Below are positions 1 through 11,595 of a stretch of DNA of 64,000 nt, piece after piece. A model generated the notes under the pieces. The model did not search any database. It was not told where the DNA came from and was given only the letters and a program-made list of their open reading frames with translations. The stretch's first letter is position 1. Each line of letters opens with the position of its first letter. Origin of the DNA: Aeromicrobium fastidiosum (GTDB lineage Bacteria > Actinomycetota > Actinomycetes > Propionibacteriales > Nocardioidaceae); assembly GCF_017876595.1 (NCBI RefSeq), contig NZ_JAGIOG010000001.1, positions 2,604,001-2,668,000 on the forward strand. Reading direction: 5' to 3'. The position numbers and the translations under genes were made by a program.

Positions 1-351
1 GTCATCGGCTGGTCGATCAACCACCTCGACCAGCTGGGCGACGACACGCAGCTGGCGGCGTGCGACTACGTCGCGGTCAGCCCCGTGTGGGCGACGGTGA
101 CCAAGCCCGATGCGACCGAGCCGTTCGGGCTGGCGGGCGTCCGGGCCGTGGCGGACCTGCTCGCGCGGCGGCTCCCGCTGGTGGCGATCGGCGGCATCGA
201 CCTCGACAGGACGGCCGACGTCGTCCGCGCCGGTGCCGACGGGGTGGCGGTCGTGAGCGCGATCTGCGGCGCGGCCGATCCGCGGTCTGCGGCGGAGCAC
301 CTGCGCCGCGTGGTCGACGCCGCACTCGCGGAGACGGCGGCGGTGCGATGA
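1..351 (+). CDS. thiE: Thiamine-phosphate synthase, C-terminal part
   Basis: The 5' end lies outside the window; 116 residues remain. ThiE joins hydroxymethylpyrimidine-PP to thiazole phosphate to give thiamine phosphate. The visible part has the end of a TIM barrel: a YVAVSPVW strand, a TKPD segment that matches the substrate loop, and the phosphate-binding AIGGID and GADGVAVVSAI strands. The stop overlaps the next start (ATGA), so it is co-translated with thiD and belongs to the same thiamine operon. Any promoter or TPP riboswitch would be upstream of the window. Confidence 0.9.
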   Translation, partial: VIGWSINHLDQLGDDTQLAACDYVAVSPVWATVTKPDATEPFGLAGVRAVADLLARRLPLVAIGGIDLDRTADVVRAGADGVAVVSAICGAADPRSAAEHLRRVVDAALAETAAVR

Positions 352-1145
352 CCCGCACGGGAGTCATGCTGACCATCGCGGGATCGGACCCCTCGGGCGG
401 TGCCGGCATCCAGGCCGATCTCAAGACGGCAGCCGCACTGGGCGTCTACGGTGCCACGGTCGTCACGGCCCTGACGGCGCAGAACACGCTGGGCGTCACC
501 GGGGTGCACGCCGTGCCGGCGGCCTTCGTCAGGCAGCAGTACGAGGCCGTCGTCACGGACCTCGACGTGCGCGCCGTCAAGATCGGCATGCTCGGCTCGG
601 TCGAGGTCGTCCGGGCCGTCGCGGCGATGCTGCGGGAGCGCCCTGTGCCCGCGGTCGTGCTCGACCCCGTCATGGTCGCGACGTCCGGCGACCGGCTCGT
701 GCCCGAGGACGCCGCCGCCGCGATCCGTGAGCTGCTCGTGCCGCTGGCGTCGCTCGTGACGCCCAACGTGCCCGAGGCCGAGGTGCTGACGGGGCTCGGC
801 ATCGACTCGCCGGACGACCTCGAGGCGGCCGCGCGGGCTCTGCTCGCACTCGGCCCCGGCGCGGTGCTGGCCAAGGGCGGGCATCTCGACGGTGACCGGT
901 GTGTCGACGTGCTGGTCTCGGCGAGTGGCGTCCGCCGTCTCGAGTCGCCCCGGGTGCGCACCCGCAACACCCATGGCACGGGCTGCACCCTCTCGTCGGC
1001 GATCGCCGCGTACCTCGTGCGTGGGGACGACCTGCCCGACGCGGTGACGTCGGCCAAGGACTACCTGACGCGGGCGCTGGTCGCCGGTGCCGGGCTCGAG
1101 CTGGGGCGCGGCAGCGGGCCCGTCGACCACCGGGTGCACGGATGA
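348..1145 (+). CDS. thiD: Hydroxymethylpyrimidine/phosphomethylpyrimidine kinase
   Basis: 265 residues, full length for ThiD, which phosphorylates HMP and HMP-P for thiamine synthesis. It begins with the GSDPSGGAGIQADLK substrate/ATP loop and ends with the ribokinase-family anion hole NTHGTGCTLSSAIAA. The start is the ATG that overlaps the thiE stop; longer upstream extensions in this frame run through thiE and are not credible. Its own stop overlaps the tenA start (ATGA). The three genes therefore form a tightly coupled thiamine synthesis and salvage unit. Confidence 0.95.
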   Translation: MTRTGVMLTIAGSDPSGGAGIQADLKTAAALGVYGATVVTALTAQNTLGVTGVHAVPAAFVRQQYEAVVTDLDVRAVKIGMLGSVEVVRAVAAMLRERPVPAVVLDPVMVATSGDRLVPEDAAAAIRELLVPLASLVTPNVPEAEVLTGLGIDSPDDLEAAARALLALGPGAVLAKGGHLDGDRCVDVLVSASGVRRLESPRVRTRNTHGTGCTLSSAIAAYLVRGDDLPDAVTSAKDYLTRALVAGAGLELGRGSGPVDHRVHG

Positions 1146-1798
1146 CCGCCGTCTCGCAGGAGTGCTGGCAGTCGGTCGGCGACTGGTTCGACGCGATCTG
1201 CCGGCACGGGTTCGTCATGGGGCTGGCCGACGGATCGCTGCCCGAGGACGTCTTCGCCCGCTACCTGGTCGACGACGCCCACTACCTCGACCGCTACGCG
1301 CGGGTGCTGTCGACGCTGGCGGCACGGGCCCCGGACGTCGCCGGGGTCGAGCTGCTGGCCGGATCCGCGGTGGGGGCCGTCGCCGCGGAGCGTGAGCTGC
1401 ACCGGGCCTACCTGGTCCCTCGTGGCCTCGATCCCGACACGGCGGCCGTGCCCGAGGCGTCACCGACGTGCGTCGCCTACACCGGCTCGCTCGAGGCCGC
1501 CGCGCACGCGGCGCCGTTCGACGTCGCGCTGGCTGCGGTGCTGCCGTGCTTCCGCGTGTACGCCGAGGTCGGACGGCACGTCATGGCGCGCCGTGCGCCG
1601 GGCGACCATCCGTTCGGGGCATGGATCGACGCCTACGCGGCGCCGGAGTTCGACGAGGCGGTCGGCCGCGCCGAGGCCTACCTCGATGCCGTCGCGACTG
1701 ATCGCACCGCGGTCCTGCACGCCTACCGTCGCTCGACCCGCTTCGAGTGGATGTTCTGGGACAGCGCCTGGCGCGGCGAGGCCTGGCCGGTCGCGTAA
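1142..1798 (+). CDS. tenA: TenA family thiaminase II (aminopyrimidine aminohydrolase)
   Basis: 218 residues, the normal TenA length. TenA hydrolyses 4-amino-5-aminomethyl-2-methylpyrimidine, a thiamine breakdown product, to HMP that ThiD can use. Family landmarks are visible: VDDAHYL near the N-terminus (substrate Asp), LPCFRVYAEVG carrying the catalytic Cys (so TenA_C rather than the TenA_E class), and the C-terminal FEWMFWDSAW with the conserved Glu. Translationally coupled to thiD, which fits a salvage role. It is the last gene of the operon. Confidence 0.92.
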   Translation: MTAVSQECWQSVGDWFDAICRHGFVMGLADGSLPEDVFARYLVDDAHYLDRYARVLSTLAARAPDVAGVELLAGSAVGAVAAERELHRAYLVPRGLDPDTAAVPEASPTCVAYTGSLEAAAHAAPFDVALAAVLPCFRVYAEVGRHVMARRAPGDHPFGAWIDAYAAPEFDEAVGRAEAYLDAVATDRTAVLHAYRRSTRFEWMFWDSAWRGEAWPVA

Positions 1799-1837
1799 CA
1801 CGCGGACACAGCCACTTCACGGGCCTTTGTTCCGGGC

Positions 1838-1853
1838 GTGACCAACCCGAAAC
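1838..1853 (+). promoter_or_regulatory. GlnR-type box in front of the Nit1 cluster
   Basis: The sequence GTGAC-CAACCC-GAAAC fits the actinobacterial GlnR consensus gTnAC-n6-GaAAC exactly. It ends 22 bp before the first likely start codon of the cluster. The cluster's marker family (MSMEG_0572/Sll0783) is a nitrogen-starvation protein, so nitrogen control is expected. Binding is inferred. Confidence 0.55.
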
Positions 1854-1875
1854 ATCCGGGGCGCTGACTGGATGC

Positions 1876-2718
1876 ATGACGTTGACCGGATGCTTGACCA
1901 AGAGCGTGTTCGACAGCCACCGTCACATCGGCGCGCTGCCTGCGTACCCGTTCTACGGCGGCCCCGCGATCCGCGCCGACGTCACCGCCAAGGAGACCGT
2001 CGAGGGCTTCTTCGCCGACCTCGACCGCGAGGGCACCGAACGCGCGCTCGTGCTGCCCAACTACGGCGTGCCGGTGCCCGATGCGGCCTTCGACCTCAAC
2101 CCGTTGGCGGTCGAGGCAGCACAGAAGGACGACCGCGTCAGCTGCGGCCTCTGGGTCTCGCCCAAGGCATCCGACGCCGCGCGCAACGACGAGGCGCTGA
2201 AGCTCGTGGGGGAGTCGGGCGTCAAGGCGCTCAAGACGAGCTTCCTGCTCGGCGGTCACCCCACAGACCCCGACTGCGCCGACGAGATCGACAAGATCTT
2301 CACGACCGCCGCGCAGAACGACCTGGTCGTGCACGTGCACACCTCGCCGGGCGCCGCGTCCGACATCGACCAGGTCGGGACGCTCGTCGACACGTACGGC
2401 GACGACACCAAGATCCACCTCGTCCACCTCGGCGGCGGCATGAGCGGACACATGAAGCTCATCGGCGGTCGCCTCTTCGACTGGATCGAGGCCGGCAAGC
2501 AGGTCTACACCGACACGAGCTGGACGATCGGCTTCGCGCCGGTCTGGCTCGTGCAGGAGATCGAGAGGCGCGGCGTCGGCCACGACCGCATCCTGTTCGC
2601 CACCGATTGCCCCTGGGGCGACTTCGAGGGCGAGCACGCGCGCCTGTCTGCCGTCGCGAAGGACCCCGAGCTGTTCGAGGCATTCTTCCGCGGCAACTTC
2701 GAGAGCTTGTACGGCTGA
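1876..2718 (+). CDS. Amidohydrolase family protein (amidohydro_2), first gene of Nit1 cluster
   Basis: About 280 residues of a TIM-barrel metal-dependent hydrolase. Visible are the N-terminal strand FDSHRHIG (HxH-type metal site), a VVHVHTSPG strand (metal His), HLGGGMSGHMKL and the late FATDCPWGDF strand with the conserved Asp. Such proteins hydrolyse or decarboxylate small ring or amide substrates; the substrate here is unknown. The start is uncertain: ATG at 1876, or TTG 1894/GTG 1906, which would begin nearer the first barrel strand; none has a strong Shine-Dalgarno. It follows a GlnR-type box and precedes nitB by 84 bp. Confidence 0.75.
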   Translation: MTLTGCLTKSVFDSHRHIGALPAYPFYGGPAIRADVTAKETVEGFFADLDREGTERALVLPNYGVPVPDAAFDLNPLAVEAAQKDDRVSCGLWVSPKASDAARNDEALKLVGESGVKALKTSFLLGGHPTDPDCADEIDKIFTTAAQNDLVVHVHTSPGAASDIDQVGTLVDTYGDDTKIHLVHLGGGMSGHMKLIGGRLFDWIEAGKQVYTDTSWTIGFAPVWLVQEIERRGVGHDRILFATDCPWGDFEGEHARLSAVAKDPELFEAFFRGNFESLYG

Positions 2719-2802: not shown

Positions 2803-3327
2803 ATGACCGAGATCGACGACCAGATCACCGCCAACATCGAGGCCTCGCTCGCCGAGATCCAGCACCCCTCGCTGCCGAAGGGCACCAACCTCTACGGCTC
2901 GACCAAGATCTTCCCCGACTACCAGGCCGAGGAGGGGCAGTCGTACTTCACGCTGATCCACGGCATCCCGCACGAGTCGTCGGTCAGCTTCGTCGCGATC
3001 CTGCAGGCCACCCGCGCACTGCGCAAGGGCTTCGAGACCGCGATCTACTTCTACGGTCCCGGCACGCTCGCGTGCTCGGCCAACCGCGGCTTCCCGACGA
3101 CCGGCGACGCGGGCTTCCCGGGCGAGCTCAACATGAACGCCTCGCTCGAGACGTACATCGCCGAGGGCGGGACGGTCTACTGCTGCCGCTTCGGCCTGGC
3201 GCTGCACGGCATCCGCGAGGAGGACCTGATCGAGGGCGTCATTCCCGCGCACCCGCTCGACGTGCAGGACGCGATCATCCACTACGCCCGCAAGGGCGCG
3301 ATCATCAACTCCGTCTACAACCTCTGA
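2803..3327 (+). CDS. nitB: MSMEG_0572/Sll0783 family nitrogen-starvation protein (NitB)
   Basis: 174 residues. I recognise this as the marker protein of the Nit1 cluster: the cyanobacterial member Sll0783 is nitrogen-starvation induced, and in Pseudomonas the homologue is NitB of the cyanide-assimilation cluster Nit1C (family knowledge). It has a DsrE/F-like look, with an alpha/beta pattern and a FYGPGTLACSANRGFP segment holding a Cys, plus VYCCRFGLALHGI. A clear Shine-Dalgarno (AGGAGA) precedes the ATG. The biochemical role is not known. It sits directly upstream of the radical SAM gene with a 2-bp gap. Confidence 0.85.
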   Translation: MTEIDDQITANIEASLAEIQHPSLPKGTNLYGSTKIFPDYQAEEGQSYFTLIHGIPHESSVSFVAILQATRALRKGFETAIYFYGPGTLACSANRGFPTTGDAGFPGELNMNASLETYIAEGGTVYCCRFGLALHGIREEDLIEGVIPAHPLDVQDAIIHYARKGAIINSVYNL

Positions 3328-3329
3328 TC

Positions 3330-4421
3330 ATGACCGCGCCCGCCTGCGGTGGATCCACCGCCACACGGACGACGACCCGGGTCGACGTCGCGATCCAGGG
3401 CATCCGGCTGCTCGACGCGCCCGTGAGCCGGCAGTCGGGTGCGGGACCGAGCGATGACGGTCACGTGCTGCTCGGGGGGGTCGGGACCGCGATCCCGATC
3501 AATCCCGACAGCCCGTTCACGATCAACCGGGGGCGCCTGCTCCTCGACGGGGCCGACACCGGCCTCGGCGTGGAGCCGGTGCGCCGCCCGGCGTTCTACG
3601 ACCTCGAGACCGCCGACGGCGTCTCGTACGAGAAGATCGCGCGCCTGCACTCGGCCAACGTGCTCGCCACGACCGTCGTGCAGACGTGCGTGCGGTACGA
3701 CGAGGCCGAACGGTGCCGGTTCTGCGCGATCGAGAAGTCGCTCGAGGCGGGCTCGACGATCGCGGTCAAGACGCCCGCGCAGATCGCCGAGGTGGCCAAG
3801 GCCGCCCACGAGCTCGACGGCATCACCCAGATGGTGATGACGACCGGCACGTCGAACGGACGCGACCGCGGTGCGACCCACCTGGCACGGTGCGTGCGGG
3901 CCGTGCGCGAGGTGCTGCCCGATCTCGCGATCCAGGTGCAGTGCGAGCCGCCGGCCGACCTGCGCACGATCACCGACCTGTACGAGGCCGGTGCCCGGTC
4001 GATCGGCATCCACGTCGAGTCGATGGACGACGAGGTGCGCCGCCGCTGGATGCCGGGCAAGTCGACGGTGCCGCTCGACGAGTACCGCGCCGCGTGGCGC
4101 GAGGCCGTCCGCGTGTTCGGCCACAACCAGGTCTCGACCTATCTGCTGGTCGGGCTGGGCGAGGACCCGGACGAGATGGTTGCCTCAGCGCAGGAGCTCG
4201 TCGACATGGGCGTCTACCCCTTCGTCGTGCCGTTCAGGCCGCTGGCCGGCACGCTCGCGACGGACGTCGACGGCGTGGCCCCGCCGCCCGCCGAGGTGCT
4301 GCAGGACGTGACCCGTCGTGTCGCCCACGCCCTGATGGAGGCCGGCATGCACGGCTCCGACCAGGCCGCCGGGTGCGCCGCGTGCGGTGCCTGCAGCGTG
4401 CTCCAGAGCGAAGGGGCGTGA
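3330..4421 (+). CDS. nitD: MSMEG_0568 family radical SAM protein (NitD)
   Basis: 363 residues. The cluster-binding motif is CVRYDEAERCRFC, i.e. Cys-x8-Cys-x2-Cys at about residues 118-130, wider than the common x3-x2 spacing. It is followed by a TIM-barrel core (MVMTTGTSNGRDRG, IQVQCEPP, YLLVGLGEDPDEM). The C-terminus has a second cysteine patch, GCAACGACSVL (Cys-x2-Cys-x2-Cys), which could hold an auxiliary iron-sulfur site. The chosen ATG follows the nitB stop by 2 bp; the longer upstream extension overlaps nitB. Part of the conserved Nit1 core with nitrilase, GNAT and AIR synthase; its reaction is unknown. Confidence 0.88.
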   Translation: MTAPACGGSTATRTTTRVDVAIQGIRLLDAPVSRQSGAGPSDDGHVLLGGVGTAIPINPDSPFTINRGRLLLDGADTGLGVEPVRRPAFYDLETADGVSYEKIARLHSANVLATTVVQTCVRYDEAERCRFCAIEKSLEAGSTIAVKTPAQIAEVAKAAHELDGITQMVMTTGTSNGRDRGATHLARCVRAVREVLPDLAIQVQCEPPADLRTITDLYEAGARSIGIHVESMDDEVRRRWMPGKSTVPLDEYRAAWREAVRVFGHNQVSTYLLVGLGEDPDEMVASAQELVDMGVYPFVVPFRPLAGTLATDVDGVAPPPAEVLQDVTRRVAHALMEAGMHGSDQAAGCAACGACSVLQSEGA

Positions 4422-4425
4422 CGAG

Positions 4426-5874
4426 ATGACGATCGTCGACCTCGACCGGGGCATCCTGACCGGCACGCGGCCCGTCCCCGTGCCGACCTTCATCGTCGAG
4501 CAGGCACACGCGCGCGCCGACCTCGACGCCTTCCGGGCGCTGCGGCGCGAGGTGTTCGTCGCGGAGCAGGGGATCTTCGATGCGGACGACCACGACCGCA
4601 TCGACGACGACCCGCGCGCCGTCGTGCTGGTCGCCCGGGCAACCGACGGGACGCTGCTCGGCGGAGTCCGTGTCGCGCCCGCCGTCGAGGGACGCGACAT
4701 CGGCTGGTGGTCCGGGAGCCGGCTGGCCGTCAGCGCCGAGGCACGCACGCACGCGGGCATCGGCGCGGCACTCGTGCGGGCTGCCTGCGCCCGGGCCGAG
4801 GCCGAGGGTGCGCTGCGCTTCGACGCGACGGTGCAGGCACAGAACGAGCGGCTGTTCCGCCGACTCGGGTGGAGGTCGCTGACGACGCTCGACGTGCACG
4901 GCCGTCCGCACGTCCACATGCTGTGGCCGATCGACCGGGCCCAGCGGCTCGCCGACGCCACCAAGGCGGTCCTCGGATCGCTGCTGCACGACCTCGGCGG
5001 TGGCGGTGCCGCTGCCTTGACCGGTGCCCTGGGCGGTACGGGGTTCATCGGCGACGATGCGGCCCCCGTGCCCGGCTCGGACCTGCTGGCCGCATGCGAC
5101 GCGATCCTGCCGTCGATGGTCGAGCGCGATCCCGAGTGGGCCGGCTGGTGCGCCGTGCTGGTCAACCTCAACGACATCTCCGCGATGGGCGCCTCGCCCG
5201 TCGGTCTGCTCGACGCCGTCGGTGCCCGGGACGCCTCGTTCGCGCGGCGGATCTTCCGGGGCCTGCGGGCCGCCTCGCAGGCCTGGGGGGTGCCGATCAT
5301 CGGCGGGCACACGCAGCTGGGTGTCCCGGCCGCGCTCAGCGTCACGGCGCTGGGCCGCACCGACTCCCCGGTCGCCGGGGGTGGCGGCAGCCCGGGGGAG
5401 TCCTTGAGGCTGACCGCCGATCTCGGCGGCGAATGGCGGCCCGGCTACACCGGCAGCCAGTGGGACTCCTCGTCGCACCGCCGCGCAGGCGAGCTGCGCG
5501 CGCTGGCCGGGGTCGTCCCGGCGCTGCGCCCCACGGCGGCCAAGGACGTCAGCATGGCCGGCGTCATCGGCACGACGGGGATGCTCGCCGAGGCGAGCGG
5601 CTGCAAGGCCGTCCTCGACGTCGACCAGGTGCCCATGCCACCGGCGACGACGGCCGGCGACTGGATGACCTGCTTCCCGGGGTTCGCGATGGTCACGACA
5701 GAGCGCACCCCGGCACGCGCCGCGCTTCCGGCCTTCGTCGACACCGTCGTCTGCGGACGGCTGACCGACGGGCGCGGGGTCGACCTGCGCTGGCCCGACG
5801 GCGTCGTGACCTCCGCGATCACCGACACCGTCACCGGACTGCCCACCATCACGACGACGAAGGACCGCTCATGA
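4426..5874 (+). CDS. MSMEG_0567/Sll0787 family fusion: GNAT acetyltransferase + AIR synthase-like (NitE-NitF)
   Basis: 482 residues in two domains. Residues about 15-165 are a GNAT fold (FRALRREVFVAEQGIF, a degenerate acetyl-CoA loop around RTHAGIGAALVRAACA, then NERLFRRLGW). Residues about 175-480 are an AIR synthase/ThiL-type ATP-binding enzyme, with NLNDISAMGASPVGLLD and GGHTQLG as metal-ATP motifs and GVIGTTGMLAE further on. In some Nit1 clusters the halves are separate genes (nitE, nitF). The start ATG lies 4 bp after the nitD stop; the stop overlaps the nitrilase ATG. The linked pair suggests phosphorylation plus acylation of one intermediate, which is inference. Confidence 0.85.
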   Translation: MTIVDLDRGILTGTRPVPVPTFIVEQAHARADLDAFRALRREVFVAEQGIFDADDHDRIDDDPRAVVLVARATDGTLLGGVRVAPAVEGRDIGWWSGSRLAVSAEARTHAGIGAALVRAACARAEAEGALRFDATVQAQNERLFRRLGWRSLTTLDVHGRPHVHMLWPIDRAQRLADATKAVLGSLLHDLGGGGAAALTGALGGTGFIGDDAAPVPGSDLLAACDAILPSMVERDPEWAGWCAVLVNLNDISAMGASPVGLLDAVGARDASFARRIFRGLRAASQAWGVPIIGGHTQLGVPAALSVTALGRTDSPVAGGGGSPGESLRLTADLGGEWRPGYTGSQWDSSSHRRAGELRALAGVVPALRPTAAKDVSMAGVIGTTGMLAEASGCKAVLDVDQVPMPPATTAGDWMTCFPGFAMVTTERTPARAALPAFVDTVVCGRLTDGRGVDLRWPDGVVTSAITDTVTGLPTITTTKDRS

Positions 5875-6722
5875 CCATCACCCACCTGGCCGCGGCATCG
5901 GCCGCCTTCGGGCGAGACCTCGACGAGGCCTACGCGCTGATCGCCCGGCTCGTCGACGAGGCGCGAGCACGCGACGTCCGACTGCTCGCACTGCCCGAGG
6001 CGACGCTGGGCGGCTACCTCTCGACGCTGCACACCGATGGTGACGGCCCCGACTCGCTGCCACCCGTCCTCGACGTGGACGGACCCGAGCTGCGCCGGGT
6101 CGCCGAGATCGCCGGCGACATGACCCTCGTGCTCGGCTTCTGCGAGGCGGACGGCGGCACCCGCTACAACAGCGCGGCGGCCGTGAACGGTGACGGCGTG
6201 CTGGGCGTGCACCGCAAGGTGCACCAGCCGCTGGGAGAGAACCTCTACTACGAGGCCGGAGACGTGTACCAAGCCGTCGACACTCCGGTCGGCAGGCTCG
6301 GCATGCTGATCTGCTACGACAAGGCCTTCCCCGAGGCGGCGCGCGCCCTGGCCCTCGACGGGGCACAGGTCGTTGCCTGCATCTCGGCCTGGCCCTCGTC
6401 GCGCACCGCGGGTGCTGCCGACATCGCCGAGGACCGGTGGACCAAGCGGTTCAACCTGTTCGACCAGGCGCGGGCGCTCGAGAACCAGATCGTGTGGGTC
6501 GCCGCCAACCAGGTCGGCACGTTCGGGTCGATGCGGTTCGTCGCGAACGCCAAGATCGTCGGGCCGGGCGGCGACGTGCTCGCCACGACCGGCACCGACG
6601 CCGGGCTGGCGATCGCCGGGGTCGACCTCGACGAGGCGCTCGACACCGCGCGGCGGTCGATGTTCCACCTGCGCGACCGCCGCCCCGAGACCTACGTCAT
6701 GAAGGCGCCGGTCCATGCCTGA
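5871..6722 (+). CDS. nitC: Nitrilase-superfamily hydrolase of the Nit1 cluster (NitC-type), active site intact
   Basis: 283 residues, full nitrilase-superfamily length. The catalytic residues can be placed: Glu43 in LPEATLGGY, Lys116 in VHRKVHQP, a second Glu at 128 (LYYEAGD) and the nucleophile Cys148 in GMLICYDKAFPE. In Nit1C of Pseudomonas the nitrilase is required for growth on cyanide as nitrogen source (established for that system); whether the substrate is the same here is unknown. The ATG overlaps the previous stop and the gene overlaps the next one by 8 bp. Confidence 0.87.
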   Translation: MTITHLAAASAAFGRDLDEAYALIARLVDEARARDVRLLALPEATLGGYLSTLHTDGDGPDSLPPVLDVDGPELRRVAEIAGDMTLVLGFCEADGGTRYNSAAAVNGDGVLGVHRKVHQPLGENLYYEAGDVYQAVDTPVGRLGMLICYDKAFPEAARALALDGAQVVACISAWPSSRTAGAADIAEDRWTKRFNLFDQARALENQIVWVAANQVGTFGSMRFVANAKIVGPGGDVLATTGTDAGLAIAGVDLDEALDTARRSMFHLRDRRPETYVMKAPVHA

Positions 6723-7023
6723 GATGACCGTGACGGTGCGCTGGCCCGACGGGCGCGTCGCCGACTGCTACTCGCCGTCGCTCGTGATGCACGACCACCT
6801 GTCCGCCGGGACGTCGTACCGCGTCGACGAGTTCGTCCGCCGGGCCGCGGTGGCCCTCGGCGAGGCGAGCGAGCGCGTCCGGGCCACGTACGGCTTCACG
6901 TGCTCGGCGTCGGCCGCCTCGCTCGAGCGCATCGAGCGGAGCGCCGCGACCTTCGACCCGCACGACTCGGTCGACGTCCTCGACATGCAACCACCCCTTC
7001 CCGTCACCCAGGAGACCGCATGA
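6715..7023 (+). CDS. nitG: MSMEG_0570 family small Nit1-cluster protein (NitG)
   Basis: 102 residues from the ATG at 6715, or 99 from the ATG at 6724; either fits. It has the family opening (TVRWPDGRVADCYSPSLVMHDHL) followed by a helical segment and a DSVDVLDMQPPLP ending. Members are nitrogen-starvation responsive and confined to Nit1 clusters; function unknown. It overlaps the nitrilase gene by 8 bp and its stop overlaps the flavoprotein start (ATGA), so it is made with both neighbours. Confidence 0.82.
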   Translation: MPEMTVTVRWPDGRVADCYSPSLVMHDHLSAGTSYRVDEFVRRAAVALGEASERVRATYGFTCSASAASLERIERSAATFDPHDSVDVLDMQPPLPVTQETA

Positions 7024-8273
7024 GCATTCCCGTCGCGATCGTCGGCGCCGGCCAGGCCGGACTGTCGGTCAGCTGGTTCCTGAAGCGGGAGGGCGTCGAG
7101 CACGTGCTGCTCGAGGCGTCCACCACCGCCCACGAGTGGACCGATCGGCGGTGGGACAACTTCACCCTCGTGACGCCCAACTGGCACTGCCGGCTGCCCG
7201 GCTACGCGTACGACGGCGACGATCCCGACGGGTTCATGACCCGCGAGCAGGTCGCCGCCTGGCTGGCGGGCTACGCCGACAGCTTCGCCCCGCCTGTCCG
7301 CGAGCACACCGCCGTGACGTCGCTGGTCGAGCGTGACGGCGGCGGGTTCGTGCTGACGCTGCGGGGACCGGACGGCGAAGAGACACTCGAGGCCGAGCAC
7401 GTCGTCCTGGCGACCGGCGGCTACCACGTGCCGATCGTGCCGCCGTTCGCCGCGGCGATCGACCCGTCGATCACGCAGGTGCACTCGGCCGACTACCGCA
7501 ACGCCAGCCAGCTGCCGGACGGCGACGTGCTCGTCGTGGGATCGGGACAGTCGGGCGCGCAGATCGCCGAGGACCTCCACCTGGAGGGACGGTCGGTGCA
7601 CCTCGCGCTGGGCGACGCGCCACGCGTCGCGCGCACCTACCGTGGGCGTGACTGCATGACCTGGCTCGCCGACATGGGCCTGTACGACACCCCCGTGCAG
7701 CAGTACCCGGGCGGTCGGGCGGCACGGGAGAAGACCAATCACTACGTCACGGGCCGCGACGGCGGGCGCGACATCGACCTGCGCCAGTTCGCGGCCGAGG
7801 GCATGCGCCTGTACGGGCTGATGTCGGGCGCGGAGGGCACGACCCTGTCGTTCGAACCGACCATGACGCAGGCCCTCGACAGCGCGGACGCGGTCTACAA
7901 CTCGATCTGCCGCGACATCGACGCGTACATCGAGCGGGAGGGCATCGACGCCCCGCCCGGTGGCCGGTACGACCCGGTCTGGGTGCCCGACCACGAGCCG
8001 CGGGTGCTCGACCTCGCAGCTGCCGGCGTCACGTCGATCATCTGGGGCATCGGCTACCGACCCGACTACCGCTGGGTCAAGGTGGGGGTGTTCGACGGTG
8101 CTGCGGCACCCACCCACACGCGTGGCGTGACGTCGGTGCCGGGGCTCTACTTCCTCGGCCTGCCGTGGATGCACACGTGGGGATCGGGACGGTTCGCCGG
8201 CATCGCACGCGACGCCGAGCATGTCTTCTCGTGCATCGTCGGGGCTCGCCGGCCCGCCGCGGCGGATCGCTAG
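7020..8273 (+). CDS. nitH: MSMEG_0569 family FAD-dependent monooxygenase-like oxidoreductase (NitH)
   Basis: 417 residues with two dinucleotide-binding folds: VAIVGAGQAGLS at the N-terminus for FAD and VLVVGSGQSGAQIAEDL in the middle for NAD(P)H, as in flavin-containing monooxygenases. IIWGIGYRPDY and GLPWMHTWGSGRF near the end are typical FMO-like closing motifs. It is the oxidative enzyme of the Nit1 core. The likely role is oxidation of an amine or nitrogenous intermediate, by inference. ATG overlaps the nitG stop; the next gene begins 3 bp after its stop. Confidence 0.88.
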   Translation: MSIPVAIVGAGQAGLSVSWFLKREGVEHVLLEASTTAHEWTDRRWDNFTLVTPNWHCRLPGYAYDGDDPDGFMTREQVAAWLAGYADSFAPPVREHTAVTSLVERDGGGFVLTLRGPDGEETLEAEHVVLATGGYHVPIVPPFAAAIDPSITQVHSADYRNASQLPDGDVLVVGSGQSGAQIAEDLHLEGRSVHLALGDAPRVARTYRGRDCMTWLADMGLYDTPVQQYPGGRAAREKTNHYVTGRDGGRDIDLRQFAAEGMRLYGLMSGAEGTTLSFEPTMTQALDSADAVYNSICRDIDAYIEREGIDAPPGGRYDPVWVPDHEPRVLDLAAAGVTSIIWGIGYRPDYRWVKVGVFDGAAAPTHTRGVTSVPGLYFLGLPWMHTWGSGRFAGIARDAEHVFSCIVGARRPAAADR

Positions 8274-8276
8274 GCC

Positions 8277-9125
8277 GTGCGCCTGGCCTCGGTCGCCGCG
8301 CACTTCGGGCGCGACATCGACCGGTCGCTCGAGAAGATGGCCGGCATCGTCGCCGACGCCCGCAGCGCTGGCGTCGACCTGCTGGTCTTTCCCGACGCGA
8401 CCCTCGGCGGCTACCTCTCCGACCTGCGGCACCCGGACGCCCATGCGCTGCCGCCTGCCGTCACGGAGGACTCGTTCGAGGTCGGCCGGGTCGTCGCGAT
8501 GGCCGGCGACATGACGGTGTGCTTCGGCTACACCGAGGAGGAGGTCGTCGACGGGCACGCGCATACCTACAACGCGGCACTGTGCGTGACGGGCGACGGC
8601 ATCCTCGGCCGCCACCGCAAGGTGCACCAGCCCGCGGGGGAGGCCCTGGCCTACCGGGCCGGCTCGACGTTCGAGGCCTTCGACAGCCCGGTCGGGCGCA
8701 TGGGGATGATGATCGACTACGACAAGACCTTCCCCGAGGCGGCCCGGTCGCTGGCCCTCGACGGCGCGCACGTCGTGGCCTGCCTGTCGGCGTGGCCCGC
8801 GAGCGTCACCGACCGGGCGTCCCGCCTGCCGCAGGACCGGCAGTCGCGCCTGTTCGACCTCTACGACAGCGCGCGGGCCGCCGAGAACCAGATCGTGTGG
8901 GTCTCGTCCAACCAGACGGGCGTCATGGGCGGTCTGCGGTTCCTGGGCCAGGCGAAGATCGTCGGCCCCGGCGGTGACGTGCTGGCCCGGACGTGGTCGA
9001 AGGGCGCGCTCGCCGTCGCCGAGATCGATGTGGAGGCCGAGATCGTCCGGGCCCGGCGCATCCTGCACCACCTCGACGAGCGCGCGCCGGACAGCTACGT
9101 CACGACGCCGCGGGGGGACGCGTGA
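8277..9125 (+). CDS. Nitrilase-like paralogue with a lost catalytic tetrad (probable pseudoenzyme)
   Basis: 282 residues, GTG start, full length and clearly a relative of the intact nitrilase at 5871-6722 (shared LGGYLS, HRKVHQP, FPEAAR-LALDGA and ENQIVWV blocks). At the catalytic positions Glu is Asp40 (FPDATLGGY), the second Glu is Arg127 (LAYRAGS) and the nucleophilic Cys is Asp147 (GMMIDYDKTFPE); only Lys115 is kept. The frame is intact with normal codon use, so it is not decaying. It may be a structural or regulatory partner of the active nitrilase. Its stop overlaps the glycosyltransferase GTG. Confidence 0.85.
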   Translation: MRLASVAAHFGRDIDRSLEKMAGIVADARSAGVDLLVFPDATLGGYLSDLRHPDAHALPPAVTEDSFEVGRVVAMAGDMTVCFGYTEEEVVDGHAHTYNAALCVTGDGILGRHRKVHQPAGEALAYRAGSTFEAFDSPVGRMGMMIDYDKTFPEAARSLALDGAHVVACLSAWPASVTDRASRLPQDRQSRLFDLYDSARAAENQIVWVSSNQTGVMGGLRFLGQAKIVGPGGDVLARTWSKGALAVAEIDVEAEIVRARRILHHLDERAPDSYVTTPRGDA

Positions 9126-10204
9126 GGATCGCGCTGCTGACGTACTCGACCAAGCCGCGAGGCGGCGTCGTGCACACGCTGGCCCTGGCCGAGGCGCTGA
9201 GCCGCGCGGGGGCCGAGGTCGACGTCTGGACGCTCGGACGTGGGGGCGACGCGACGTTCTACCGCGCCGTCGACCCGTCCGTCGGGGTTCACGCGGTGCC
9301 GTTCCCCGAGCAGCCCGGCGAGGACGTCGGGGCGCGCATCCAGCGGTCCATCGTGGTGCTGCGCGACGCCTTCAGGCCCGACGCCTACGACATCGTGCAC
9401 GCGCAGGACTGCATCAGCGCCAATGCCGCGCTGCCGTGCCTGCGCACGATCCACCACCTCGACACCTTCACGACGCCCGAGCTGGTCGCGTGCCACGAGC
9501 GGGCGGTCGTCGACCCGGTCGGACGCATCTGCGTCTCGGAGTCGGTCGCCGCGGAGGTCAAGGCGGGCTGGGGCCTGCAGCCGACCGTGATCCCCAACGG
9601 GGTCGACGCTGGGCGATTCGCCCGGGCCGCCGGTCCAGACGGCGCGGCGGGGCGGGCGGCGTGGCACGACCGGCTCGGGCCGTACGTCCTCGCGCTGGGT
9701 GGCATCGAGCCGCGCAAGGGCAGCATCGACCTGCTCGAGGCCTATGCGCTGATGCGGCGCCGCTGCGCAGACGTCCGCCTGGTGTTCGCGGGCGGCGAGA
9801 CATTGTTCGACTACCGCGACTACCGGGCCGCCTTCGAGCGGCGCGCCGCCGAGCTGAGCGTCGACCACGAGATGCTCGGCGTCGTCGACGAGGGCGAGCT
9901 GGCGTCCCTGGTGGCCGGCGCGGCGGCGATGGCGTTCGTGTCGACCAAGGAGGGCTTCGGGCTCGCGGCCATGGAGGCGCTCGCGGCGGGGGTGCCGGTC
10001 GTCGCCCGTGACCTGCCGGTGCTGCGCGAGGTCTTCGGCGACGCCGTGCGGTTCGCCTCCGAGCCCATGGCGATGGCCGGGGCGCTGGCCGCGGTGCTGT
10101 CCGACCCGCCCGATCCGCAGATCGGCCGCGACCTGGCGGCGTCCTACACGTGGGAGGCGGCGGCGCGGGCGCACCTCGACTTCTACGCCGCGCACCTGAC
10201 GTGA
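9122..10204 (+). CDS. MSMEG_0565 family glycosyltransferase (GT4-like)
   Basis: 360 residues. GT-B fold of the GT4 kind: N-terminal RIALLTYSTKPRGGVVHTLALAEAL (glycine-rich acceptor loop), the middle VIPNGVDAGRF, the donor domain opening YVLALGGIEPRKGSIDLLEAY, and the donor-site EGFGLAAMEALAAGVPVVA. This family is found in Nit1 clusters of mycobacteria and relatives. The acceptor is unknown; a cytoplasmic small molecule is possible since no membrane segment is seen. GTG start within the previous stop; its own stop overlaps the ligase GTG. Confidence 0.86.
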   Translation: MRIALLTYSTKPRGGVVHTLALAEALSRAGAEVDVWTLGRGGDATFYRAVDPSVGVHAVPFPEQPGEDVGARIQRSIVVLRDAFRPDAYDIVHAQDCISANAALPCLRTIHHLDTFTTPELVACHERAVVDPVGRICVSESVAAEVKAGWGLQPTVIPNGVDAGRFARAAGPDGAAGRAAWHDRLGPYVLALGGIEPRKGSIDLLEAYALMRRRCADVRLVFAGGETLFDYRDYRAAFERRAAELSVDHEMLGVVDEGELASLVAGAAAMAFVSTKEGFGLAAMEALAAGVPVVARDLPVLREVFGDAVRFASEPMAMAGALAAVLSDPPDPQIGRDLAASYTWEAAARAHLDFYAAHLT

Positions 10205-11595
10205 CGTCGATGTCGATCGGCAGGGCGTTGACGCACCTGGCCGACGCGGCACCCGACGCCGTCGCCGTCCGATGTGGCGACGCGATCCTGAAACGGCGCG
10301 AGCTCGATCGTGTCGCCGACGGCGTCGCGCGGGCCTGGGCTGAGCGCGTCGGGCACGACGACCTCGTCACGATCGCGTTGCCCAACGGGATCGACTTCGT
10401 CGTCGCGTGCGTCGCGACCTGGAAGCTCGGGGCCACCCCCCAACCCCTGTCGCCGCGGATCGGACCGGGGGAGCGCGCGGCCGTCCTCGACCTCGCCCGT
10501 CCTGCACTCGTCGTCGACGCCGAGCTCGTGCGGGCCGGTGGACTGGTGCCGTCCGACGACGACACGCCGCTGCCCGATCTGGTCGCGTCGTCGTGGAAGG
10601 CGCCCACGACCAGCGGCAGCACGGGGCGGCCCAAGATCGTCAGGTCGACGACCCCGGCGACGGTCGACCCCACGGCGGCGATCGCGCCCTTCGTGCCGCG
10701 GCACGCCGTGCAGCTCGTGGCCGGTCCGATGTTCCACGCCGCGCCGTTCGTCTACGCGATGCGCGGACTCATGACAGGTCACGAGCTCGTGATGCTGCCC
10801 AGGTTCGACGCAGCCGCGGCCCTGCAGGCGATCGAGCGCCACCGCGTGACCTGGACGATGCTCGTGCCGACCATGATGCAGCGCATCTGGCGGCTCGAGG
10901 GACGCGAGGCGCACGACGTCTCGTCGCTGGAGAGCGTCCTGCACCTCGGTGCACGGTGCGCGCCGTGGCTCAAGCGGTCGTGGATCGAGTGGCTCGGACC
11001 CGACCGGGTCGTCGAGGTCTACGCCGGCACCGAGTCGCAGGGCATCGCGATGATCACGGGAAACGAGTGGCTGGCGCATCCCGGATCGGTCGGTGGGGCC
11101 GTCTCGGGGTCGGAGTTCCGCATCGTGCGCCTTGACGGCACCGTGGCGGCACCGGACGAGCGCGGCGAGATCGTGATGCGTCGCCAGGCAGGCCCGACCT
11201 ACCAGTACGTGGGAGCCGAGCCGCACGTGCGCGACGGCTGGCACACGTTGGGCGACGCGGGCTGGATGGACTCCGACGGCTACCTGTTCGTCGCCGACCG
11301 CCTCGACGACGTCATCGTGACGGGGGGTGCCACGGTGCAGCCCGCCGACGTCGAGGCCGTGCTGGACGAGCATCCCGCGGTGCGGTCGTCCGTCGTCGTC
11401 CCCCGGCCCCACGGCGACCTGGGCCAGGCCGTCCACGCCGTCGTCGATGTCGCGGCAGGCGAGGTCACCGTGGCGGAGCTGGCGGCGTGGACCCGCGCCC
11501 GCCTCGACCCCGAGAAGGTGCCCCGCAGCTGGCAGCTGGTCCGCGACGAGCTTCGGGACGACACCGGCAAGGTCCGTCGCCGCGACCACCGCTGA
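10201..11595 (+). CDS. AMP-binding acyl-CoA ligase-like enzyme
   Basis: 464 residues from GTG 10201 (461 from ATG 10210). Adenylate-forming superfamily: P-loop TTSGSTGRPK at about 136-145, YAGTESQG (A5), GWHTLGDAGW with DGYLFVADRLDDVI (A7-A8 hinge), and a C-terminal lid ending DDTGKVRRRDHR with the A10 lysine. It activates a carboxylate as acyl-AMP, normally for CoA transfer; substrate unknown. It is coupled to the glycosyltransferase by an overlapping GTGA and closes the Nit1 operon. The next gene is convergent, 9 bp away. Confidence 0.85.
   Translation: MTSMSIGRALTHLADAAPDAVAVRCGDAILKRRELDRVADGVARAWAERVGHDDLVTIALPNGIDFVVACVATWKLGATPQPLSPRIGPGERAAVLDLARPALVVDAELVRAGGLVPSDDDTPLPDLVASSWKAPTTSGSTGRPKIVRSTTPATVDPTAAIAPFVPRHAVQLVAGPMFHAAPFVYAMRGLMTGHELVMLPRFDAAAALQAIERHRVTWTMLVPTMMQRIWRLEGREAHDVSSLESVLHLGARCAPWLKRSWIEWLGPDRVVEVYAGTESQGIAMITGNEWLAHPGSVGGAVSGSEFRIVRLDGTVAAPDERGEIVMRRQAGPTYQYVGAEPHVRDGWHTLGDAGWMDSDGYLFVADRLDDVIVTGGATVQPADVEAVLDEHPAVRSSVVVPRPHGDLGQAVHAVVDVAAGEVTVAELAAWTRARLDPEKVPRSWQLVRDELRDDTGKVRRRDHR

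Follow-up and report, generated by a model that had tools for sequence, protein, structure and literature searches.

A nitrilase-fold paralogue with aspartate in place of the catalytic cysteine, probably kept as a non-hydrolytic subunit of an actinobacterial gene cluster

Analysis of a 64,000-nucleotide stretch of the Aeromicrobium fastidiosum genome (the window) revealed a Nit1-type gene cluster that encodes two nitrilase-fold paralogues, one with an intact catalytic set (protein B) and one that carries aspartate, Asp147, at the position of the catalytic cysteine (protein A). As judged by two sequence censuses, the Asp147-bearing variant of A is a conserved actinobacterial group. Our preferred reading, which we hold with moderate confidence, is that A is a nitrilase-fold paralogue that has lost nitrilase/amidase chemistry and is kept as a non-hydrolytic subunit in the glycosyltransferase branch of the cluster. 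Databases still call A-type proteins hydrolases, although they are probably non-hydrolytic; on a Rhodococcus qingshengii plasmid, for example, A and B are both annotated 'carbon-nitrogen hydrolase family protein'. This reading would shift which chemistry is to be sought in the cluster and singles out a testable part of it that would be devoid of hydrolytic activity.

The cluster and the catalytic positions of protein A

A is specified by a single open frame with a GTG start and a product of 282 residues (Table 1). Its start lies 3 bases behind the stop of the upstream MSMEG_0569 family gene (hereafter 0569) and its stop codon shares bases with the start codon of the glycosyltransferase gene, which bears out the intact, coupled frame described in an earlier, sequence-only reading of this DNA. 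Both A and B matched CN_hydrolase (PF00795) in a Pfam profile search and are 53% identical in pairwise alignment; A has the profile match as well as the predicted fold of that family.

The cluster carries the Nit1C-type marker set, with TIGR04043, TIGR04045, TIGR04050, TIGR04044, TIGR04042 and TIGR04046 each above cut-off and TIGR04049 under it (184 versus 321); the glycosyltransferase likewise exceeds the cut-off of its own family profile, TIGR04047. Neither of the two CN hydrolases qualifies as the actual Nit1C nitrilase: against TIGR04048, the profile of the Nit6803-type nitrilase (cut-off 502.6), A scored 24.0 and B 46.9 bits, and none of 28 marker-bearing genomes had a match above that cut-off. 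The Nit1 label given to the cluster in the sequence-only reading thus holds for the marker families and not for the two hydrolases. The aliphatic amidase profile NF009802 (cut-off 427) was absent from the nine matches of A at E 0.001 and gave 20.5 bits with B. The best profiles of B were carbamoylputrescine amidase and archaeal nitrilase, all under cut-off. Among the flanking genes, TENA/THI-4 was also detected in three other loci (L005, L006 and L009), and the acyl-CoA-ligase-like gene mostly follows the glycosyltransferase gene in near relatives too. In L225 the eight-gene cluster is carried by the Rhodococcus plasmid pLP1, a linear molecule of 502 kb, and is flanked on both sides by IS3-family transposase genes.

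Table 1 Features of the cluster in the window (residue numbers of A unless stated otherwise)
Feature	Positions	Strand	Basis
Phosphomethylpyrimidine kinase and TENA/THI-4 genes, upstream of the cluster	345..1795		PF08543, PF03070
Amidohydrolase, heads the cluster in many relatives; start uncertain	1798..2718	+	PF04909
MSMEG_0572/Sll0783 family protein	2803..3327	+	TIGR04044
MSMEG_0568 family radical SAM protein; start uncertain	3384..4421	+	TIGR04043
GNAT (TIGR04045) and AIR-synthase-like (TIGR04050) fusion (GNAT-AIR)	4387..5874	+	profiles
Protein B, CN hydrolase, intact Glu43, Lys116, Glu123 and Cys148	5871..6722	+	Pfam, alignment
MSMEG_0570 family small protein	6715..7023	+	TIGR04042
MSMEG_0569 family flavin-dependent oxidoreductase	7020..8273	+	TIGR04046
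Protein A, nitrilase-fold paralogue, Asp replacing catalytic Cys, 282 aa, GTG start	8277..9125	+	ORF, Pfam
Asp40 codon, general-base Glu position; Asp, Gly, Gln, His or Tyr in relatives	8394..8396	+	alignments
Lys115 codon, catalytic Lys position, retained	8619..8621	+	80/80 and 32/32 relatives
Glu122 codon, second Glu of the tetrad, retained	8640..8642	+	3ivz alignment; 80/80; 31/32 (one Asp)
Asp147 codon, catalytic Cys position	8715..8717	+	3ivz alignment; 80/80; 32/32
Helix 188-204, near-invariant A-specific motif DRQxRLFDLYDxxRAAE	8838..8888	+	alignments
GTGA overlap, TGA stop of A and GTG start of the glycosyltransferase gene	9122..9125	+	bases
MSMEG_0565 family glycosyltransferase, usual downstream neighbour of A	9122..10204	+	TIGR04047
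Acyl-CoA-ligase-like gene	10210..11595		

Alignment of A to 3ivz placed Asp40 at the general-base Glu, Lys115 on Lys113, Glu122 on Glu120, which we take to be the second Glu of the catalytic tetrad, and Asp147 on Cys146; B aligned to 1j31 (PH0642) gave the same correspondence of positions. A therefore lacks the catalytic Cys of PF00795 and the general-base Glu, and retains both the catalytic Lys and the second Glu of the nitrilase superfamily, whereas B has all four residues, as the sequence-only reading had stated. That reading had counted three changes in A, with Lys115 as the sole survivor of the tetrad and the second Glu lost to Arg127. Two of these changes, Cys to Asp147 and Glu to Asp40, are borne out by the alignments. 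The third is ruled out: Arg127 aligns with Glu125 of 3ivz, five residues beyond the second Glu, and position 127 varies freely both among B relatives and among 80 A relatives (Ala in 53, Leu in 10, Arg in 8, Ser in 4, Asp in 2 and Cys, Thr and Val in one each), whereas Glu at the position of Glu122 is shared by all 80 A and all 77 B relatives. Since Glu122 aligns with Glu120 and Arg127 sits elsewhere, the catalytic changes are two rather than three.

Conservation, descent and selection

We collected relatives of A in two censuses. The first was a similarity census over one genome per species (84,980 species), queried with A through six seed peptides, from which the best 80 of 192 relatives were kept. 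Because one of the seed peptides covers Asp147, the second census was built on TIGR04043, the radical SAM family, as an independent marker; this family is above cut-off in 54 of 394 genomes of the window's class and 22 of 396 genomes of its phylum. It comprised 73 stretches from 71 genomes other than the window's own, in which A (present in 32) and B (present in 47) were assigned by similarity to the two proteins of the window, independently of residue 147. No A or B relative was found, at E 1e-30, in six genomes of the class whose marker scores were weaker (G418, G437, G452, G570, G578 and G709).

The best 80 of the 192 relatives were all actinobacterial, as judged by their titles, and carried Asp147, Lys115 and Glu122 without exception; the A-specific residues Arg180, Gln189, Arg191 and Lys242 each reached a frequency of 1.00 among them, and position 40 was Asp in 74 and Gly, His or Tyr in two each. 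The marker-selected A proteins had Asp147 and Lys115 in 32 of 32 and the second Glu in 31, the sole exception being an Asp in L197, which lies outside the window's class. Their base position was Asp in 24, Gly in 7 and Gln in one, and Glu occurred there in none of the 80 and none of the 32. B had Cys in all 77 similarity-selected and all 47 marker-selected cases, and the two B rows of the similarity set that lacked Glu at the first position were partial (L034 and L071). Locus L034 gave two matches each for B, 0572, GNAT-AIR and the amidohydrolase, as if either the assembly or the cluster were frameshifted. Across 75 genomes the codon of Asp147 was always GAC, other near-invariant Asp codons of A included some GAT (1 to 22), and the Cys codon of B was TGC in 59 and TGT in 16.

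With Asp147 present in every relative of both censuses (80 and 32), the residue is no chance event or sequencing error, and here the sequence-only reading is confirmed. Nor was there an internal stop in any of the marker-selected stretches (32 of A and 47 of B, 79 in all); one TGA in the longer match range of G518 and G726 was absent once the stretches were trimmed. An oddity of the strain, a sequencing error and decay are thus excluded by the conservation, by the dN/dS values given below and by the absence of internal stops.

In a tree calculated with the two trait columns removed and six very distant outgroups left out, a branch supported at 100/98 set the 33 A proteins apart from the rest, with a single change at residue 147. 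When the far outgroups were included, the best tree was rooted inside the A fork with two changes at residue 147; holding A together was not rejected (p-AU 0.326), which is no proof of a clade. The presence of Cys in B, in 11 outgroup rows and in the superfamily at large points to a change from Cys to Asp. The check proposed along with the sequence-only reading, whether the Asp variant forms a separate conserved clade, thus came out in its favour on the near-set tree, with Asp147 invariant and dN/dS below that of B.

Among 2,775 comparisons between 75 paired genomes, which include the window's and exclude three partial B rows (L034, L071 and L083), A showed the lower divergence 2,446 times. 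Where dS was 0.05 to 1 in both genes (1,996 pairs), the median dN/dS was 0.313 in A against 0.431 in B; these pairwise values are mutually dependent, and synonymous sites are far from few. Marker-selected proteins gave identities of 0.676 for A and 0.639 for B, with A higher in 388 of 496, a narrower gap that points the same way. Purifying selection on A is no weaker than on B. Restriction to this strain with relaxed dN/dS, the outcome named beforehand as speaking against a kept pseudoenzyme, is the reverse of what the widespread group and its low dN/dS display.

The constraint is distributed differently in the two proteins. Invariant positions numbered 20 of 38 in the pocket motifs of A versus 25 of 38 in those of B, and 15 of 26 versus 8 of 26 in helices 153-161 and 188-204, which we take to be the usual nitrilase dimer surface; the pocket motifs of A are still strongly conserved in absolute terms. 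The segment DRQxRLFDLYDxxRAAENQ of A is nearly frozen also in proteins with Gly, Gln, His or Tyr in place of the base, and departs most in L197. At near-invariant positions of helix 188-204, A and B differ in Gln/Trp189 and Leu/Arg192.

Gene order and the role of protein A

Directly downstream of A lies the glycosyltransferase gene in 31 of the 32 marker-selected loci (0569 in the remaining one) and in 78 of the best 80 of the 192 relatives, where the two exceptions are a locus that stops at a contig end (L011) and one with the glycosyltransferase just before A (L051). The upstream neighbour varies between 0569, GNAT-AIR, 0570 and B. B shares the locus with A in 32 of 32 marker-selected and 77 of 80 similarity-selected cases, and a B-like gene is found elsewhere in each of the three other genomes. 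Two of these (L038 and L044) have a split cluster, in which B and 0569 sit together, away from a site with radical SAM, GNAT-AIR, 0570, A and the glycosyltransferase; the third (L080) has B-like fragments on another contig, 0569 under cut-off only and a 0569 fragment at the locus edge. B is therefore found in every genome with A, in one case as fragments, but the converse is untrue: 15 of the 47 marker-selected B loci have no A, and 12 of these belong to two genera of a single family. The distance between A and B amounts to several genes in some lineages, and in others the two are on different contigs. Three Williamsia genomes (those of L035, L036 and L037) have, besides the B of the cluster, an extra B-like gene beside 0569 at another site.

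Distance correlations over the 27 genomes with all seven genes, a hint of unassessed significance, gave A partial values of 0.56 with 0569, 0.35 with the glycosyltransferase and 0.31 with B, and gave B 0.56 with GNAT-AIR. The tie of A to 0569 itself is weak. Over 48 genomes A and 0569 were both present in 31 and both absent in 12, with 0569 alone in three and A alone in two, which amounts to three independent pairs (sign test p 1); the joint absence is largely one event, and the 12 genomes with A-less B in two genera of one family have no 0569 above cut-off. In 14 of the 47 B-bearing loci (L148, L154, L158, L164, L165, L167, L171, L172, L174, L178, L179, L180, L183 and L197) another FAD-binding flavoprotein, homologous to that of L154 and with Trp_halogenase as its best Pfam match (41 bits), lies between B and the glycosyltransferase. 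These are exactly the loci whose genomes have no 0569 above cut-off, so that 0569 has given way to another flavoprotein in them, a substitution at the flavin step. A outlives this exchange in two of the 14 (L148 and L197) and is thus untied to 0569 as such; as an obligate partner of 0569 it can be rejected. The weight of the preferred reading, which drew on conservation and the glycosyltransferase, is unaffected.

It is very unlikely that A carries out classical nitrilase or amidase chemistry, because the nucleophile is gone in every member found and the base is not retained; absence of any function is just as unlikely. We propose that A separated long ago from its Cys-bearing paralogue and that the change of Cys to Asp147, with a general base that was not retained, abolished its nitrilase/amidase chemistry. 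Asp147, Lys115 and Glu122 would form a charge network at the former nucleophile site, the pocket would hold a ligand or stay rigid with no thioester or thioimidate being formed, and the nearly frozen helix 188-204 would dock on a partner, which is likelier to belong to the MSMEG_0565-type glycosyltransferase branch than to be B. Gene order is best read as tying A to the glycosyltransferase rather than to B. The kept pseudoenzyme in a Nit1-type cluster that the sequence-only reading had claimed would accordingly stand as an inference from sequence, given the conserved Asp group and the unrelaxed selection on it; the loss at Arg127 and the tie to the active enzyme in particular do not, given a glycosyltransferase gene adjoining A in 31 of 32 loci and B without A in 15 of 47. 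Several observations sit less well with the preferred reading. An invariant Asp, Lys and Glu would also fit a new active site, and in most members the Asp that replaces the general-base Glu may still be able to serve as a base. The pocket motifs are strongly conserved, although a pure docking role would not need them. Moreover, the glycosyltransferase occurs without A in 14 B-bearing loci and, at about 40% identity, in other A-less lineages, and so has no need of A.

A might instead assemble with active B into a mixed oligomer and serve there as a regulatory or structural subunit, a dead paralogue that activates a live one. The presence of B wherever A was found, the identity between the two and the presumed dimer-surface helices that they have in common are all compatible with such an oligomer. 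We nevertheless consider it unlikely, since B occurs without A, the fixed neighbour of A is the glycosyltransferase while A and B may lie several genes apart or on different contigs, B tracks GNAT-AIR over A in the distance correlations, and the two versions of helix 188-204 differ at the positions given above.

It is rather improbable, in our view, that A is an enzyme of new chemistry, with Asp147 as nucleophile, acid or base acting, for instance, on an intermediate of the glycosyltransferase. It would then be the first Asp-centred nitrilase-fold enzyme, with Asp147-Lys115-Glu122 joined by Arg180, Arg191 and Lys242, feeding the glycosyltransferase in an actinobacterial nitrogen-starvation pathway. 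The complete conservation of these residues and of Gln189 among the best 80 of 192 relatives, and the constant position of A ahead of the glycosyltransferase gene, would be accounted for. The drift of the base position to Gly, Gln, His or Tyr would not, nor would a constraint that, relative to B, is weaker in the pocket motifs and stronger in the two helices, and we know of no precedent in the nitrilase superfamily for new chemistry based on Asp. A decaying duplicate without function, as the loss of the catalytic Cys and Glu could suggest, is refuted by the conservation in both censuses, the dN/dS values, the lack of internal stops and the single origin on the near-set tree, and its probability is negligible.

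Comparison with known systems

The archaeal nitrilase/amidases PH0642 and its relatives (1j31, 6ypa and 3ivz), which are 25-27% identical to A, have Glu at the position of Asp40 and Cys at that of Asp147. B, an MSMEG_0571-type CN hydrolase, belongs to the cluster of A and resembles A in its near-equal length and its sequence, but differs in its full Glu-Lys-Glu-Cys set and in the loci where it occurs alone.

Mycobacterial loci (for example L054 and L063) have the order 0572, B, 0570, 0569, radical SAM, GNAT-AIR, A, glycosyltransferase. MSMEG_0566 of M. smegmatis occupies the place of A in the order 0572-0571-0570-0569-0568-0567-0566-0565 and so corresponds to A by position, a match by gene order alone. 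In print, MSMEG_0566 is named 'aliphatic amidase' (PMC6039565, PMC4222082, PMC4617892), a putative one that could contribute to nitrogen assimilation (PMC6039565), and MSMEG_0571 is called a carbon-nitrogen hydrolase (PMC4222082, PMC4617892). The MSMEG_0565-0572 operon is described there as GlnR-dependent, with peroxide resistance under nitrogen starvation reported (PMC6039565). The sequences of the A group argue against the amidase activity implied by the printed name, as the gene so read belongs, by its order, to a group without the nucleophile. The same source suggests that selenocysteine is inserted at a UGA codon of MSMEG_0571, so that translation would yield a single long protein extending through MSMEG_0569 (PMC6039565); the separate B, 0570 and 0569 genes of relatives, though not of M. 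smegmatis itself, speak against this proposal.

Our search of the open-access literature, which was limited, found no description of a widely conserved dead nitrilase-superfamily member and no remark on the missing nucleophile of A-type proteins; a search on the Nit1 product, judged by titles and the starts of abstracts, found nothing relevant. The nitrilase domain of DRT1 is described as active (PMC13275509) and hence sets no precedent for a dead nitrilase.

The Nit1C clusters with Nit6803 or NitC have marker genes in common with the window (TIGR04042, 04043, 04044, 04045/04050 and 04046). Podar et al. (2005) reported a single nitrilase in Nit1C and assigned the cluster neither a product nor a function (PMC1199592); in Pseudomonas, the Nit1C nitrilase NitC has been linked to cyanide assimilation (PMC11049912). 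The window differs from Nit1C as so described in having two CN hydrolases, neither of which passes TIGR04048, together with a glycosyltransferase and an amidohydrolase. Dead paralogues that activate live ones are known from the AdoMetDC prozyme (PMC5201418) and deoxyhypusine synthase (PMC3663545). In these systems, as proposed for A and B, a catalytically dead paralogue stands beside a live one; a mixed complex is reported for them, whereas one of A with B would be hypothetical and the gene next to A encodes another protein.
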